Positions 37,912 through 45,763 of a stretch of 64,000 bases of DNA are shown here, piece after piece (the first letter of the stretch is position 1; the number at the start of each line of letters is the position of its first letter). Source of the stretch: Papaver somniferum (Eukaryota; Streptophyta; Magnoliopsida; Ranunculales; Papaveraceae). Both the position numbers and the translations under genes were made by a program. The stretch lies in assembly GCF_003573695.1 (NCBI RefSeq), contig NC_039359.1, positions 121,589,849 to 121,653,848 of the forward strand. Direction: 5' to 3'. Below the pieces are notes generated by a model. It ran no database searches. It worked only from the letters and a program-made list of their open reading frames with translations, and had not been told where the DNA came from.

Positions 37912-37920
37912 AATATTTAA

Positions 37921-37961
37921 CCTAGCTTAATTGGGGGCCATAACTTCCAATTGGAGGCCAT
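37921..37961 (+). repeat. Left TIR of the MULE
   Basis: It contains AATTGGGGGCCAT, then AACTTCC, then a second AATTGGAGGCCAT, so the TIR itself has an internal direct repeat of 13 bp with one mismatch. Confidence 0.85.
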
Positions 37962-38498
37962 GCACTACGGGACAAAAAAGGTCACCAATCCTAATTTGGG
38001 TCACCTCATAAAAAAATATTTTCTAAATGGCAAAACTGCCCTTATATGATTAGTATTAGGAATTAATTAGTTTGATTAGTGTGGTAAGTGTATTTAGATT
38101 AAAATGTGATTTTAGGAAAAAAATTATGGAAAATGTGTTTTATGTGTTGAGAAGAAGAGGAGGAGTTTTGAGAGGAAAACCTAGGGTTTTTACAAATGGG
38201 TGATTCAAGTGGAGGGAATGAGATTGGCGAAGCTTCAAATAACAACAATGATTGTGTTGATGGTAAGATTGTCTCAACTAATGATATGTGTTGGATGTTT
38301 GATGAGGAGATGTTGATAGAGGAAGGCTTGAACAATGGTTGGAATGAAGATCCCAGTGCTCAAGATGAAGGAACCAACACTCAAAATGAGGAACCCCAAG
38401 GCCAAAACAATCAGGTAAACTTCTTATACTCTTCAAATTGTCGGAATGGTGCTCCAAGTGGTCGAATCATCCACACTATGGAACAACTCAGAGAAAGG

Positions 38499-38830
38499 GT
38501 CGTCATAGTCGGGGGGTGTATACCCAAATGACTCTCTAAGGTCGTCAGTATATTGACACTACCAATAACGACTCAAACCTGCAACTTTTCCAGGTTATGA
38601 AAAATCGTTAGGATAGTGTGCTAAACATTGACGACCCTTTTTAACTAGGTCACTTAGAGTCGTTTTGTTGTTTTGTTTACACATTGACGACTCTAAAACC
38701 AAAACTCTCTGTAAAAAGTAACACTTAGGGTCGTCATACATGTAGTCATATGAAATGACGATCCTAGCTATCAATTACTAATTTCTTTTAGAGTCGTTAG
38801 TTTGATTAGTTATATAAAATAACGACCCTT
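38499..38830. repeat. RAGTCGTYA motif cluster 1
   Basis: At least eleven copies of GAGTCGT/GGTCGTCA or their complements (ACGACTC, TGACGACC), at intervals of 15-50 bp, in the first intron of the transposase relic. Examples: 38499, 38563, 38629, 38650, 38683, 38730, 38791 and 38820. Confidence 0.8.
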
Positions 38831-38956
38831 GCACTAGATTCTCATAATTTTTCATTTCATAGAATCATTTCATTGAATCGTAAAAGACATACATCTCGCA
38901 TAGCGTTGCATTGAAGGAAATGAAATACAATAGATAATAAAGGTGCACTGATACAC

Positions 38957-39420
38957 TTAATCATATATGGCGTAGTTATATATAGTGCCTTCCAAGATAA
39001 AGTAGCAATCGTGGAGCTCAAAATTTTCCCCACGAAGCTCCTCATAATAGAAATACGTCTTCCCCAACTGAAAATGCAAATATACTTAGTTAGTATCGAT
39101 CAAAGCTTTTTATAAGTTTTACCTCTTGTTCAAATACTTACTCTTACAACACTCAACGTATCCGGAAAGGCTTCCCTAACATCCTTAAGTTTTCTTTTCA
39201 AAATATCACACTCGAATTGTATCTTCTGGAAGCGTTCCTTGACTTGTTTCAAAGACCTTGAGTTGCAATTTCCGTCCAACGCCACAAAAACGATGAATAC
39301 GCGGTTCCACCAAGCATCCGATGTTTCATCAATGTCTTTGTCTAGACTTTCACAGTGGTTAGTGATTGTTTTCCAAGCACTTGTAATGGCACAATTCTCT
39401 TCATTAGTGAATGGAGTCAT
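38957..39420 (-). CDS. Small SANT/trihelix-like protein in the MULE
   Basis: Two exons, 39420-39142 and 39067-38957, joined by a 74-bp phase-0 intron (donor GTAAGT, acceptor TTTTCAG), give an uninterrupted 129-residue protein. It starts MTPFTNEENCAITSAWKTI, with further conserved-looking aromatic positions at DAWWNRVF, followed by a Lys/Arg-rich coiled segment (SLKQVKERFQKIQFEC). This spacing resembles the trihelix/SANT domains of plant transposon accessory proteins (Harbinger ORF1-like, NAM-like). It may bind DNA, perhaps the element's own repeats; that is inference. It is the only unbroken coding unit in the MULE. It lies within the first intron of the + strand transposase gene, on the other strand. 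Confidence 0.65.
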
Positions 39421-39639
39421 GATGTTTCTCTTTTTTTTGCTCTTAAATGGTAATTAAATGAGAAGGAGAAGAGGAGGTTTATAATTAGGGTTTTGATATG
39501 GAATAGGTGAGATATGGGCCTCTATATATAGAATGGAGCGACCAAACTGCCTCAACCACATTTGGTTGAGTTAAATTCAAAAATAAATGCAACCACTAAC
39601 ATGAATCGTTAATCCGTAAAGATTAAAACCAAACAACTC

Positions 39640-39900
39640 TTCATATGTACCAGAGAACGACTCGTAGAGTCGTTATTTTATATGTATACAAGGTGATGAT
39701 TCAAGGTGAAAACTGGGCAGAGTTGGTTATATCTATCAATGTAGAGTCGTCACTTTATAAAAAAGAGTCGTCATACATCGAGAAAAGAGTCGTTGGTCTA
39801 TAAAAAATCTGGGTGACGACTTAAAGAGTCGTTCACCTGTAAATTATGCTGACGACTGTCTGGGTCGTCATATTAACATCTTATAGAGTGACGACCCTAT
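39640..39900. repeat. RAGTCGTYA motif cluster 2
   Basis: About a dozen copies in both orientations, ending just before transposase exon 2. They include two close copies in AGAGTCGTCATACATCGAG and AAAGAGTCGTTGG near 39765-39795. Confidence 0.8.
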
Positions 39901-40999
39901 ACTGATTTTGTTGTTCTTTTTTTTTGTAGTTGGTTGTACGGGTGAGCTCTCAACCTGAACCCCTCGACACTGTCGGCCCGGATACCTCCCAAGCATATAT
40001 GACCGATTTGGTACGTTTTTATTGTTTGAGTCAATGTATATCCATACGAAAATTGTTTACTTAGTATTTTATAATGAACATGTTATTTGTTTAATGTAGA
40101 CGTGGAAAACAAAGGCTGAGGTCAAGGAATGGATTATTTCCAAGGCAAAAGAGAATATGTGCGTAATTGTTCCAAGCAAACACGTTGATTGTAAGCAAAT
40201 GGAGATGGTATGCGAGAGAGCGGGGGATAAGAAAGAAAGTCACAAAGGGAAGAACTACAAGTATGTGAAGAAGACGACGAGGGTCTACAAAACTTCGTCG
40301 AAGAAGATAAAATGCCCCTTCAGGATTGTTTTCAAAAGGCATCCCGAAACTCTACTATGGTGGATGTATAGTATTCCGGATGGTCGTCACAACCATCCTC
40401 CACCTAGTAATCTTTTAGGGCACCCAGCATATGCCTGATTGAAACCACATCAAATGGAAAAGGTTCGGCAGATGAAGCCATATAGGCCCCTTAAGATTCT
40501 AAATGCAATAAAGGCGGAAGATAAGTTAAACTTGTCTATTCTTTCCACAATCTACGCTGCCAAAGCAACGATCAAGAGAACTGAATGGGATGGTAGATTA
40601 ATTATGCAACAATCAGAGTGGTTGGCAGAAAAACATAACTATACCATGCAAACGAGGGTCGGTCTAGGCGACAAAGTGACTCATATTTTTCTTGCCCATC
40701 CTAGGATGATGGATTTGGCACAGTGCTTTTACCAGGTCTTGGATAAACGTTGGTTGCGGTCCTTTCCTTAATTCCCACGCGCATCTACGCTATGATTATG
40801 AACTGTCCCACATTCGTGATAGGACAAATTATGAGATTGTGCAACAAGTACAAAGAGTTTATCGTGAGGCATAAAGGCGATAGACGTGTGGCCCAAAAAG
40901 AATATACCAAATGGAGAGGAGAGCAGTTTCATCACATCGAAGCCGCAATGGTAGTTAAATCTCACACCGGAAAGAACAATAACATGTAATGTTTTCATA

Positions 41000-41095
41000 A
41001 AGAGTCGTTATCAGTTTTAGTAAAAGAGTGATGACTCTGGTTATCACCAGAGTCGTCATCTTGTGTAAAAACAAAACTAACGACCCTTATTTTGA
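41000..41095. repeat. RAGTCGTYA motif cluster 3
   Basis: Four to five copies, including a palindromic pair GATGACTCTGGTTATCACCAGAGTCGTCAT (two halves separated by a short loop) at about 41029-41060. Confidence 0.75.
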
Positions 41096-41399
41096 ATTTC
41101 AAAATAACAGACCGTTGGGATCTACTTCGCCATCCAAGAGCTCCTCTTAAGGAAAAAGTGAGTATTCCGTTAATATTTATACTTCTGTCATGCTTCAAAG
41201 TTATAACATTCCTCGTTTAATTTCAGCTGGAACGTTTCGATGGGTTATGGACAATACGTAATGGGGAAACTAAGTTTCATTCACCATAAAGAATATACAA
41301 CGTTTACGACCATTTGATGCATTAACTTCAAGAATACCCATGTTAACTCTTATGCAATACGAGATAGATGTAATGTTATTTTCCTAATGAAATCAAAAT

Positions 41400-41740
41400 C
41401 CTTTCTAGTTTCAAAATGAGAGTCGTCACAGGTATCCATAGCAGAGTAACGACTCCTAAATCCAACAAACAGTCGTCATTGACATGAAAAATCTAACGAC
41501 TCTAGCCAAATAAATTCAAACCTCCTGGATATATTTTGTTAACCAAGGGTCGTCATTTATTTCATTATAAACACTGACGACTCTATCCAGAAATATTCTT
41601 TCCATCTCCTGGATGTTTTGGGAAAAAAATGGTCGTTAGATCTCTATTTGAGGATATTAACGACTATGTGTGTTGAAGTGGTAAATACAATTAGGGTCGT
41701 CAAAGTACTATGAAATGAAGATGACGACCCTTGGTATGAG
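41400..41740. repeat. RAGTCGTYA motif cluster 4
   Basis: About twelve copies, alternately GAGTCGTCA and TAACGACT, in the spacer between the transposase relic and the minus-strand plant-mobile-domain gene. Confidence 0.8.
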
Positions 41741-41958
41741 GAAGGGAAATGTTGTCTGCATTGGAGTACTACATGGTTCTAACGAGCATACTTGAAAACA
41801 TAGTATTTGCAACAAACACAGGAGTTACCAAACATAAAAGTACTCGAAACAAAGACTTCAAACCAAACACATAAGTTGTTTCAACACACCCTTAAGTTCA
41901 ATTCATAAAGTAAAATTAGCATAAGTTGAAGTCGACCATCTCGACCTCGACCACCACC

Positions 41959-44900
41959 TTACTGCCTCCCTGACCTGCTAACTCTCCGGCTTTTCTTAGG
42001 AGGAGCACCCTCTGGGGAACCAACATCTTCTCTAGTAATTTCGTGTACCTCTGAGGGATGTTCATCATGATGTTGTCTACTTTGGCCATGCTCATCAACT
42101 TCTTGTGCTCTTTGGCTACGTGATTTCCGTCTCCTCTTACCTTCCTTAGCCAGCTCCTTGAACATCTTCTTTGCATTGGGATTTTCAATGTGCGTGCAGT
42201 AATCTGCGTACCGACATTGCTTCGCAGGATCCATCACTTCCCCTTTGTCAGCCGAGCAACAAAAAGCCTTGACAAGAAGCTTCATTCGCTCCCTCTATAT
42301 GCATTCAAAAACAATTTCACATTAACTCTCTTATATGTAGGTGAATAACAAAATTACAAAATTAAATACTCACCACTAGTGTCAGAATGGAAGTAGCATC
42401 TCTACTTTCGACTTGAGAAGAAGAATAGGTGGATGCTCTGTTGGTCCTCCTACCCGGAGTCGGATCTACCCATATCACCCTACCATGGGAGAAGCCTTCA
42501 TACCATTCGACGTAATCCGGTGTTGCCTCATGACCTTCATCCGCATGCACCCACCATGAGATGTCTACAAGCCTAGAGTGTCTATCATTCCAATGCTTGA
42601 CATCAACTTCAGGTTCATAAGCAACCTTTATACCCGCTTCGTCAGCCTCACACTTTTCCAACTTGTGCTTGAACGGAGGTACATAATCCTTATCGGGTGA
42701 ATCTTGAATAAACCAAGTTGACACATGATTCTTATCGGATTGTACATTGAAAAACCGTTAGGGTGAAACAAAGGTCCATGGTAATACAAGACATCTTCCA
42801 TTGCGCCAACTCTATTATTCTTTTACGGATTGAAGACTACCTCTTTAGCCGGGATGTTGTCAAGTTTTTGACGCATTTGTATCAACGCATCAGTTTGTTC
42901 CTTATCTTGAGAACCAGTGAACAAGTATTTGGTTCGCGTTGGACTACCTTTGCTTCATTGTGGGTTGAGTTCCACATCTTCATTATCTTTGATCAGTGAT
43001 GGGAAATGATCATAAATCCACACCTATAGCAACCAATGAAATAAACATAAATAATTCAATTTTTAAAATGTACAAAAATAAGAAAACTTTCATCAATCCA
43101 AATACCTGGATTAGAGCCAAATTCCCATTAATTTGAGAAGTTAGTTTGCGAGATCCCTGAGAAAGCTGACCATTCAGGTGTGCAATTATGGCAGTCCCCC
43201 AAGAGTACTTGCTCACATCTTCCAAGGGATCCAAAAGCTGAAGAAGGTTGGCGCTCACCCGTTACCTTTGCTGTCAGGAAATTAACCGACGCAAGGACAT
43301 ACAACAAATACCCAGCCGCCGCATAGCGACATTCCATATCAGAGAGACCTCCTTCTTTTTCCTTCTTTTCTGTCCCAGAAAACATGTTCCTAATATCTAC
43401 AAGTTTGAACTCTTTCTTCGGGTACTTAGGTCCCTTCTCGAAAAGCCCATTAGTCTTCTCGGAATCCCAGCCAAACAAGTTCTTGGTCCATGTATAGATG
43501 TCTTCCCAACTAGGCCTTCTCTTGAACTTCTCACCGGTTGATTTGCCTTCGACCTGCAACCCTAATATCTGTTCTGCGTCATCAGGAGTTATCGCCATCT
43601 CACCAAAAGGAAGTTGGAATGTGTCGACTTCAGCGTGATACCTTTCACAGAAACTAGATACTGCGACCTTGTCATACGCAATCACAGAGTTCAGAACGGC
43701 ATTGTACAAACCTGAGTTTTCAACCAAATCTCTAACTCTTGCACATTCACCTTCTAGCGGCCACAACTCCATTTTCTTGAAAGAAGATTGGTGCGGAAAA
43801 GACGTTCGGCATCCTTATGATCCTACAAAACATAAACAAACACGTATTTAAAAAACAAAACATAAACAAGTTAACACCAACTAATCAAATAGCAAGCAAA
43901 TTTGGGATTCTTACGATTGTCTCACTAATGCAATGAGCCCACGATCCAGGATATCCAAATAGAACTTTGCCCCCATCTCTAGGTTCTCCTCTAAGTTTAC
44001 CACCTCGAAGAGGAGGCAACATCAAATGAGTAGCGGGAACGTGTCTCGCACTGGGTGCAATATCTGTTCCATCCTTCTTAACCCTCATTACCGGCTTTTT
44101 CGCCTTTACATTTCATCCTCATCCTCAACAGTGGTTTTATCATCATCACCACCTTCATCCTTTTCATCATCATTACCTTCATTCTCTTCCTCCTCATCAT
44201 CATTATCATCACCGCCATTATTACCTTTATGTTGTTCCTCCTCATTACCATCATCCTCATCATCACCACTACCATTACCTTCACCCTCTTCCTCCTCTTC
44301 TTGATCTTCTTATTGTTCATCTTCTTCTTCTTGAATCTCTTCTTCTTGTATCTCATGTTCTACACCCTGTTCCTCCTCTACTTGCTCTTCTTCTTGTTCA
44401 TCTTCTTTTTCAGCACTAGTGTTAGCTGAAATAACAGGAGTGTCTGATTCTGACGAATCGGACAACTCATTACCTTTGTCTCTTGGTTCGGTGATAGAAA
44501 ATGATACCTCACTCGGCCTTCTTCCGCGCAATGGACCGGCAAGTAAGTATTTATCGTTGCGGGGAGGTTTCGAAGGAGGAGTTATCGTGATTTCAACCTT
44601 GTCTTTCGTTTTCTTGTCACTACATTCCAAACACGAATTTTTTTTTATAAGACATCAACTTTATCTCTATCAGTTAAAGAGTCGCCAATGATATGCTCTA
44701 ACAAAATAACGACTCTTCATTACAAAGTAACGACTGTAATTTATAAGGTAACGACTCTTTGCAAAAATTGGACACTGAGGATGATTTTGGTCCTTAAAGG
44801 GTCGTTAAAGATTAAACTTGAGTTGTCAAACAAGTAACTGCCCACCCTTTAAAAGAGATGACGACTCTAGGGATTATAGATTACTAACGACTCTAGTCTA

Positions 44901-45404
44901 GGGATTATATACTACTGACGACTCTATCGTTTTCTCCAACAGAAGGAAGTTCAAGTTCAACCCAGAGTCGTTATGCACTAATTTGGGGTCGTCAAACTAC
45001 AATCGTCATCTTCAACCTAATATGGCGACGACTCTATTCTAGGGCACAAAAGGTCGAAGTAGCAGAACAAGGGTCGTCATATTTACACTAACAGGTTAAC
45101 GATTTTTCATAGAAAAAGCATGCAATGTAAGAGTCGTTAGGGTATTATTTCTTCGATGCTAACGACTCTCACTCTGTAACTTTTATTTTTCAGTTACCAA
45201 TCTCGATTACACAATCAAAAAACAACCAAAACATCGAATAGGAGGTGGGTTTAAGTTCACGTACCCTCTAATTGGAGCCATTCCCTTTTTGGGTTTCGAT
45301 TTGCTTGCTTCAGGAGCTCTTCGCACGTACACCTTTGCATTCACCGTATCTACAAGGTTAGGAATTTGAAGTGCTTTGCGAGCGGTTTGCTTTGTTTTAG
45401 CCAT
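41959..45404 (-). pseudogene. MULE gene: H3-tail-like N-terminus, acidic region, plant mobile domain
   Basis: Exon 1 (45404-45265) starts MAKTKQTARKALQIPN; after Met removal AKTKQTARK matches the histone H3 tail ARTKQTARK in eight of nine positions. Donor GTACGT and acceptor ATGTAG join it in frame to exon 2 (from 44619), a Lys/Pro stretch then a Glu/Asp-rich run, broken by TAA at 44310-44312 with the acidic frame continuing to about 44110. Next come an exon near 44090-43917 (GYPGSWAHCISETI before GTAAGA) and the plant mobile domain, 43772-43020: MELWPLEGECARVRDLV, FQLPFGEMAITPDDAEQILG, then frameshifted KYSWGTAIIAHL and, spliced, VWIYDHFPSLIKD. Further exons include 42720-42375 (WWVHADEGHEATPDYVEWY) and a basic C-terminus 42291-41959. 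At least two frameshifts and three nonsense codons were seen. Plant mobile domains occur in MAIN/MAIL1 nuclear proteins and often in transposons. Its role here is unknown. Confidence 0.78.
44680..45180. repeat. RAGTCGTYA motif cluster 5
   Basis: The densest block, about 20-25 copies in 500 bp. It fills the first intron of the minus-strand gene, between its H3-like exon and its acidic exon. Confidence 0.8.
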
Positions 45405-45420
45405 ATTTGTAGAAGAAGTT

Positions 45421-45452
45421 AATCGTCGATTAAAGTTTTATCATCGACGATT
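45421..45452. promoter_or_regulatory. Inverted repeat just upstream of the H3-like gene
   Basis: AATCGTCGAT (45421-45430) and its exact complement ATCGACGATT (45443-45452) flank a 12-base loop, 17 bp upstream of the minus-strand ATG. It could be a leader hairpin or protein-binding site. Confidence 0.5.
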
Positions 45453-45714
45453 ACGCGATGAATCGGTTCGAAAAATTTTCCTCGGTGGAGGTGGAGTCGT
45501 TAATGGTGGAGGTGGAGAAGAGAAAGGGAGGAGAGGAACATGAAGATAAAAGAGAAACTGATTTTGTCTTTGATTTAATTAGGGTGTATAGATTATGGGC
45601 CTTAATAAGGGTAGTTAATTAGTGAAAATGATTTTCAATTAGTGAAGGGTAAAATAGTATATTCATATTGCTATATTTACACCCCTGAAAATTTTGGGGG
45701 GCAAACAAAATTCC

Positions 45715-45754
45715 ATGGCCCCCAATTGGAAGTTATGGCCCCCAATTAAACTAG
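45715..45754 (-). repeat. Right TIR of the MULE
   Basis: Inverted match of 37921-37961 with two or three differences; followed directly by the AATATTTAA target duplication. Confidence 0.85.
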
Positions 45755-45763
45755 AATATTTAA

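Follow-up and report, generated by a model that had tools for sequence, protein, structure and literature searches.

Element-encoded anti-silencing has been described for few systems, those named in the available part of PMC10398659 being VANC and MURA, and the same source presents the non-coding DNA of VANDAL elements as a target of both VANC and RdDM. VANC21 binds YAGTATTAY in the non-coding parts of VANDAL21, and DUF1985 is a domain of VANC proteins (Hosaka et al., PMC5735166). For the plant mobile domain (PMD), Ikeda et al. (2017) offered the tempting speculation that PMDs captured by Mutator-like elements (MULEs) serve anti-silencing (PMC5418596). On the side of the silencing machinery, SHH1, a protein that binds H3K9me2 together with H3K4me0, recruits Pol IV to some of its targets (PMC9699677). 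The accessible part of a review of molecular mimicry by plant transposons covers RNA, DNA and protein-complex mimicry and describes no H3-tail copy (PMC12085086), and the accessible text of another review (PMC13317346) has 0 occurrences of 'histone' and of 'plant mobile domain'. An H3-tail start on a transposon protein appears in no title among the matches listed for histone mimicry with transposons or plants and for PMD with MULEs.

We analysed 64,000 nucleotides of the Papaver somniferum genome (hereafter the window; NC_039359.1, positions 121,589,849 to 121,653,848, forward strand), in which a MULE carries a PMD gene whose product starts much like histone H3. As in the VANDAL/VANC system of Arabidopsis, a MULE bears an extra nuclear-type gene, a short motif is dense in introns and intergenic DNA, and the poppy protein is weakly DUF1985-like; unlike in that system, the PMD is the main domain, the N-terminus is H3-like, and the motifs are of mixed orientation and mostly not tandem (PMC5735166, PMC10398659). 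The MULE-captured PMD-C genes also have a PMD carried by a Mutator-like element; however, they are described as transposase fusions in several grasses and Amborella, whereas the poppy PMD is encoded on the minus strand by a gene of its own that opens with an H3-like exon (PMC5418596). MAIN and MAIL1 share the PMD, and several poppy proteins are named MAIN-like in databases, but these two host proteins act with PP7L in silencing, and the available part of the source mentions no H3-like tail for them (PMC7156037).

The element spans 7.8 kb (37922..45754) and is non-autonomous by appearance. It shows the hallmarks of a MULE: terminal inverted repeats of 41 nt (left, 37922..37962, plus strand; right, 45714..45754, minus strand) that are 95% complementary to each other, whereas the terminal repeats of VANDAL are described as degenerate in the parts of the sources available, and a 9-bp target-site duplication, AATATTTAA, on either side (37912..37920 and 45755..45763). 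These structures flank the gene and establish it as transposon-borne, as the original prediction had proposed. The only trace of a transposase in the window element is a gene remnant on the plus strand (40157..40438) with a weak FAR1-type DNA-binding domain (PF03101, E 0.005, below the curated cut-off), and the ORF that follows it (40439-40771) gave no Pfam match to the MULE domain. Translation further suggests a possible first exon of a plus-strand gene (MGDSSGGNEIGE...) at 38196..38412. A third small ORF on the minus strand (MTPFTNEENCAITSAWKTI...; 39130..39420), possibly spliced, may be a standard component of the family, as another locus, L063, has a relative of it, itself without a Pfam match above a cut-off. 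The PMD gene is the second, non-transposase gene of this poppy MULE family.

That gene has five exons on the minus strand of the element, running from an H3-like exon through an acidic exon to the PMD, with GT...AG ends at all four introns of the model. Exon 1 (45265..45404) translates as MAKTKQTARKALQIPNLVDTVNAKVYVRRAPEASKSKPKKGMAPIR, in which the H3-tail-like MAKTKQTARK is followed by a conserved QIPNLVD and a basic stretch, and the same exon is present in the annotated poppy protein P0002. Intron 1 (44620..45264; 645 nt, GTACGT...TAG, with 12 RGTCGTYW copies) has its GTACGT donor from 45264 and its acceptor end at 44620, and the 45265/44619 junction is in frame (...MAPIRG joined to DKKTKDK...) and common to the annotated proteins P0002, P0005, P0008 and P0013. 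Exon 2 (43915..44619) encodes the acidic region, exon 3 (43106..43822) the first part of the PMD (PF10536, E 2.6e-8, 33.9 bits, just under the curated cut-off of 34.9 for this exon alone), exon 4 (42374..43023; drawn from splice sites and matched to P0002 by eye) the second part of the PMD protein, and exon 5 (41959..42294; from its ORF and splice sites) a C-terminal basic region. The PMD assignment is clear in P0002 (E 2.3e-21, 76.8 bits vs. the 34.9 cut-off), and a PMD match at E <= 1 occurs in 16/16 homologues (best 3.6e-41). DUF1985 matches, much weaker than those to the PMD, occur in 11 of these 16 (best E 0.001), and DUF287 is absent among the nine families listed for them. Neither exon 1 nor the family profile matched a solved structure, and structure prediction for P0002, with 15 homologues as input, gave a mean pLDDT of 33 and was left unused. 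One further annotated protein, P0014 (C5167_024132), has pentatricopeptide-type domains and also matches the PMD gene product at 75% identity along one stretch (14% of the query); its gene model is possibly mis-joined.

The window copy itself is broken: a TAA follows ...EEEDEQ in exon 2, frameshifts come after it in exons 2 and 4, and this copy therefore cannot make the full protein. Together with the finding that only 8 of the 29 loci tested from its clade (clade 1K) are open through exon 2, one of the eight (L010) with a broken donor, and with the different join in annotated P0004, where the same exon 1 is spliced to a later point (...MTPIRG joined to PSEVSF...), this would fit an annotation artefact in which the H3-like exon lies outside any expressed gene. 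We consider such an artefact very improbable, however, given the identical exon joins of four annotated poppy proteins, the canonical splice sites, and the four clades, in which the 5' leader is almost unchanged and exon 1 closes with a PIR-type block. The in-frame splice from the H3-like exon to an acidic exon and on to a PMD, which had been proposed from the GTACGT donor, is thus upheld by four annotated relatives.

Set against residues 1-9 of H3 (ARTKQTARK), the window exon agrees at 8/9 positions in register, K4 and K9 included, with R2K as the mismatch; translation of the minus strand bears out the H3-like start as first described. The match sits at the very start of the protein, a position from which it would be exposed. 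Some viral and host proteins are histone-tail mimics, and like them the poppy protein is a non-histone protein with a short linear copy of a histone tail; unlike theirs, the poppy copy stands at the N-terminus itself, as in H3, and belongs to a DNA transposon.

The H3-like exon recurs many times in the poppy genome. A search with the exon DNA found 425 candidates and 40/40 of those scored match; a search with the exon protein found 336 places and 150/150 of those scored match, so other copies of the family do have the exon. Along most of 2 kb, the window copy and the clade-1K loci share 94-97% identity, and MAKTKQTARK is kept in 28 of the 30 best protein matches (L009-L038), a sample biased to conservation. 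Among 20 copies retrieved from the 24 lowest-scoring of the 150 are some that read MARTKQTARK (clade 1R), alongside MARTKQTARE, MAHTKQTARK, MACTKQTARK and MAKTKQTTRK and some with the start lost. A 30-nt degenerate pattern for H3-like starts matched the genome 189 times, true H3 genes included, and its reversed control matched 0 times (~0.0006 expected at an assumed 64% A+T); this control and the copy number rule out a chance match. The 20 loci examined among 100 of the 189 comprise 5 H3 genes (one, L075, with a stop), 14 element copies and 1 Gag-looking locus (L070; G000:C2:172024902, plus strand), which starts MAKTKQTARK (MAKTKQTARKTTSTG) and gave no Pfam match to Gag families. In its relatives L138 and L139 the start is MSKIKQTSRQETSTD or similar, and of the 4 matches in all two are MSKIKQTSRQ-like and one has other residues; we therefore rejected a Gag family with H3 starts and regard L070 as a lone convergence, in an element that looks unrelated. 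All homologues found are from P. somniferum, and protein searches that need shared 5-residue words, one of which scored the 7992 top word-sharing candidates, found none outside poppy, a result that falls short of showing absence.

We also searched without the H3-like residues, using residues 12-49 of a clade-2 line (150 scored of 295 candidates), and sampled 30 loci plus 20 of the 60 intermediate matches; 4/50 (L108, L121, L123 and L132, with starts shifted, frame-broken or missing) were left out of the counts. The exact form prevailed in clade 2 even so, 11/33 copies keeping all ten residues (A1 26, R2 32, T3 31, K4 33, Q5 24, T6 32, A7 21, R8 31 and K9 32 of 33); R2 and T6 vary as little as K9 does, and A7 and Q5 vary most. 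The majority N-terminus is MARTKQTARKANQIPNLVD in clade 2, MARTKTTARLANQIPNLVD (MARTKTTARL) in clade 3 and MARTNEYKGKFANPKLVE (MARTNEYKGK) in clade 4, which comprises three loci (L134-L136). Ungapped identity to H3 1-9 is thus 8 in clade 1K, 9 in clades 1R and 2, 7 in clade 3, 4 in clade 4 and 0 in the outgroup protein P0018. MARTKQTARK, identical to H3 1-9, is the form of the older clades and the majority form in 1R and 2; Q5 and K9 are lost in clade 3, a sister clade that multiplied, and clade 4 retains just MART and K9 of the H3 residues (4/9). With the same leader and motif array and a different start, clade 4 offers a natural comparison for the H3-like residues. The H3-like start characterises the whole family, is exact in the older clades, and sits on an element laid out in a VANC-like way.

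A tree of the PMD grouped the clades as ((2,3),(4,1)), rooted between the two pairs (support 96/97 for (2,3), 93/95 for (4,1), 100/100 for clade 1 and 93/97 for the ingroup), the rooting, by P0016-P0018, resting on long outgroup branches. P0011, a sequence match to the downstream part of L108, stood for clade 2; clade 3 was covered by P0012 (start MARTKRTKRLAS), next to which lie P0010 and P0015, and clade 4 by P0007. Site-wise parsimony by hand on this tree gave MARTKQTARK as the start of the common ancestor of the four clades. Between clades 1R and 2, codons 2-10 show 0 nonsynonymous and 2 synonymous changes, whereas 16/36 residues differ from residue 11 to the end of the exon (Fisher p 0.017 against residues 2-10); in the other nine of ten clade comparisons, residues 2-10 were not significantly better conserved than the rest of exon 1, and clades 2 and 3 differ by 4.2 nonsynonymous and 4.8 synonymous changes in codons 2-10. 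Within clade 2 (29 copies) nearly all changes are terminal and neutral-looking (terminal dN/dS 1.03 for codons 2-10), with 2 nonsynonymous changes, both A7V, on internal branches. Codons 11-20 (QIPNLVD), which adjoin the H3-like stretch, are kept about as well and, with the nine null comparisons, mean that the constraint is not H3-specific. By these patterns the N-terminal block up to QIPNLVD is constrained between clades, and the evidence for selection on exactly the H3-like residues is modest and short of proof; selection that keeps the matching residues is favoured by the comparison of 1R with 2, and clades 3 and 4 and the neutral drift within clade 2 speak against it.

The same comparisons bear on a rival view: the N-terminus, either left over from the captured start of an H3 gene or a basic peptide that arose by chance, would now act purely in nuclear localisation or nucleic-acid contact, and its resemblance to H3 would be useless. 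Codons 2-10 of 1R and of 2 match a host H3 gene at 7/9 codons (P 0.014-0.019 in simulations across five H3 loci, among them L075 with its in-frame stop), a weak hint that the exon start may have been captured from an H3 gene, and MULEs do capture gene pieces (PMC5418596); exon 1 is basic throughout, and clades 3 and 4 lost H3 residues without extinction. Against this stand the exact retention in 1R and 2, where differences are synonymous only, and K4, unchanged in 33/33 clade-2 copies. We regard a useless remnant as quite possible, if short of probable.

Conservation of the 5' end at the nucleotide level was considered as a cause of the retained start. The leader is indeed conserved, bases -30 to -1 of the majority sequences being identical at 30/30 positions among clades 1R, 3 and 4, at 29/30 in 1K and at 24/30 in clade 2; yet codons 2-10 carry several synonymous differences between clades, and we rejected this cause. 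The leader (45405-45452, minus strand) contains a hairpin with a 10-bp stem and a 12-nt loop, 16 nt before the ATG (45421..45452, minus strand; AATCGTCGAT...ATCGACGATT; z -2.3, 6/200 shuffles folding as well).

The non-coding DNA of the element is marked by 43 dispersed RGTCGTYW motifs (extended form AGRGTCGTYA; 38498..45502), vs. a shuffle mean of 1.6 (maximum 7 of 200 shuffles) and 6 in the other 56 kb of the window. PMD-gene exons contain 0, and 42/43 lie outside the mapped coding pieces, the remaining one being inside the plus-strand gene piece; the motif thus resembles that of VANC systems in being short, dense and restricted to non-coding parts. It is absent from the terminal repeats and occurs once upstream of the ATG, filling instead the introns and the more internal intergenic DNA, and is found next to the plus-strand gene too. 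The single orientation and tandem growth of VANC-type motifs were not found: 23 motifs are plus and 20 minus, in mixed order and mostly not in tandem, with tandem repeats as two short arrays in intron 1 and the other six rows in the acidic exon. Over the first 560 nt of intron 1, we counted 21.6 motifs per kb for clade 1K (29 loci), 17.6 for other clade-1 loci (16 loci), 9.9 for clade 2 (29 loci) and 17.3 for clade 4 (3 loci); the same stretch gave 8.0 per kb in 11 clade-2 loci from the pattern search, 4/11 already among the 29, and the five H3-gene loci had 0 motifs in 6.0 kb.

Motifs in both orientations, also beside the plus-strand gene, and a FAR1-like piece encoded in the element would suit a PMD protein that assists transposition or transcription of the element as a co-factor, with the motifs as sites for a FAR1-type transposase or for the PMD protein and with silencing not the target; TnpA of En/Spm, which binds short motifs in both orientations, is a parallel. 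The motifs, however, are absent from the terminal repeats and fill introns and intergenic DNA well inside the element, a layout closer to VANDAL than to subterminal arrays, and we hold this role to be unlikely.

Taken as a whole, the observations are best explained, at a probability of roughly 40%, by a PMD protein that would act as a VANC-like, sequence-targeted anti-silencing factor with an H3-tail N-terminus. We favour this reading because H3 1-9 is exact in the majority sequences of both 1R and 2 and 8/9 in the window clade, because codons 2-10 of 1R and 2 differ only synonymously while the rest of the exon has diverged, because K4 (33/33) and K9 (32/33) persist in clade-2 copies found without those residues, and because the ancestor is reconstructed as MARTKQTARK. 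The motif array, enriched, outside the PMD-gene exons and dense in intron 1 of 1K, 1R, 2 and 4, argues in the same direction, as do the weak DUF1985 matches (11/16) to a VANC-protein domain and the speculation of Ikeda et al. on MULE-captured PMDs (PMC5418596). Against it, clade 3 multiplied after losing Q5 and K9, and clade 4 keeps 4/9; clade-2 copies drift neutrally, and the constraint is not H3-specific; the effect of the host PMD proteins MAIN and MAIL1 on transposons is silencing, not activation (PMC7156037, PMC5418596); and the motifs, unlike those of VANC21, lie in both orientations.

Mechanistically, the PMD protein, or an element-encoded partner, would bind the AGRGTCGTYA motifs across the non-coding DNA of the element. 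Removal of Met would leave a free N-terminus, A-R/K-T-K-Q-T-A-R-K. With its K4 and K9 it could pass for an H3 tail and, on the element, tie up silencing factors that read or write such tails, SHH1 for example. In its full form, a two-part anti-silencing device in which the array marks the element's own DNA and the copy of H3 1-9 captures K4/K9-reading machinery (SHH1/Pol IV, SUVH enzymes), keeping the element unsilenced, is rather doubtful. The sequences directly show the element, the gene model, the exon joins shared with annotated relatives, the N-terminus, the many copies and clades and the motif array; expression of the gene, DNA binding by the PMD protein, its anti-silencing role and H3-tail mimicry at the protein level are inferred. 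As for the original prediction of an H3 mimic, a transposon-borne PMD protein with an H3-tail-like exon in many copies stands, and the exact H3 1-9 match of the older clades and the motif array strengthen that interpretation; a simple K4/K9 decoy is disfavoured, because clade 3 lost K9 and Q5, clade 4 has only MART and K9, just 11/33 clade-2 copies keep all ten residues, and changes in that clade look neutral in rate.

If the favoured reading is true, motif-targeted anti-silencing would extend beyond VANDAL, and PMD proteins would gain a testable chromatin role. Both halves lend themselves to direct tests, one as a nine-residue peptide and the other as a ten-base motif, and the poppy family could show a DNA transposon mimicking a histone tail.
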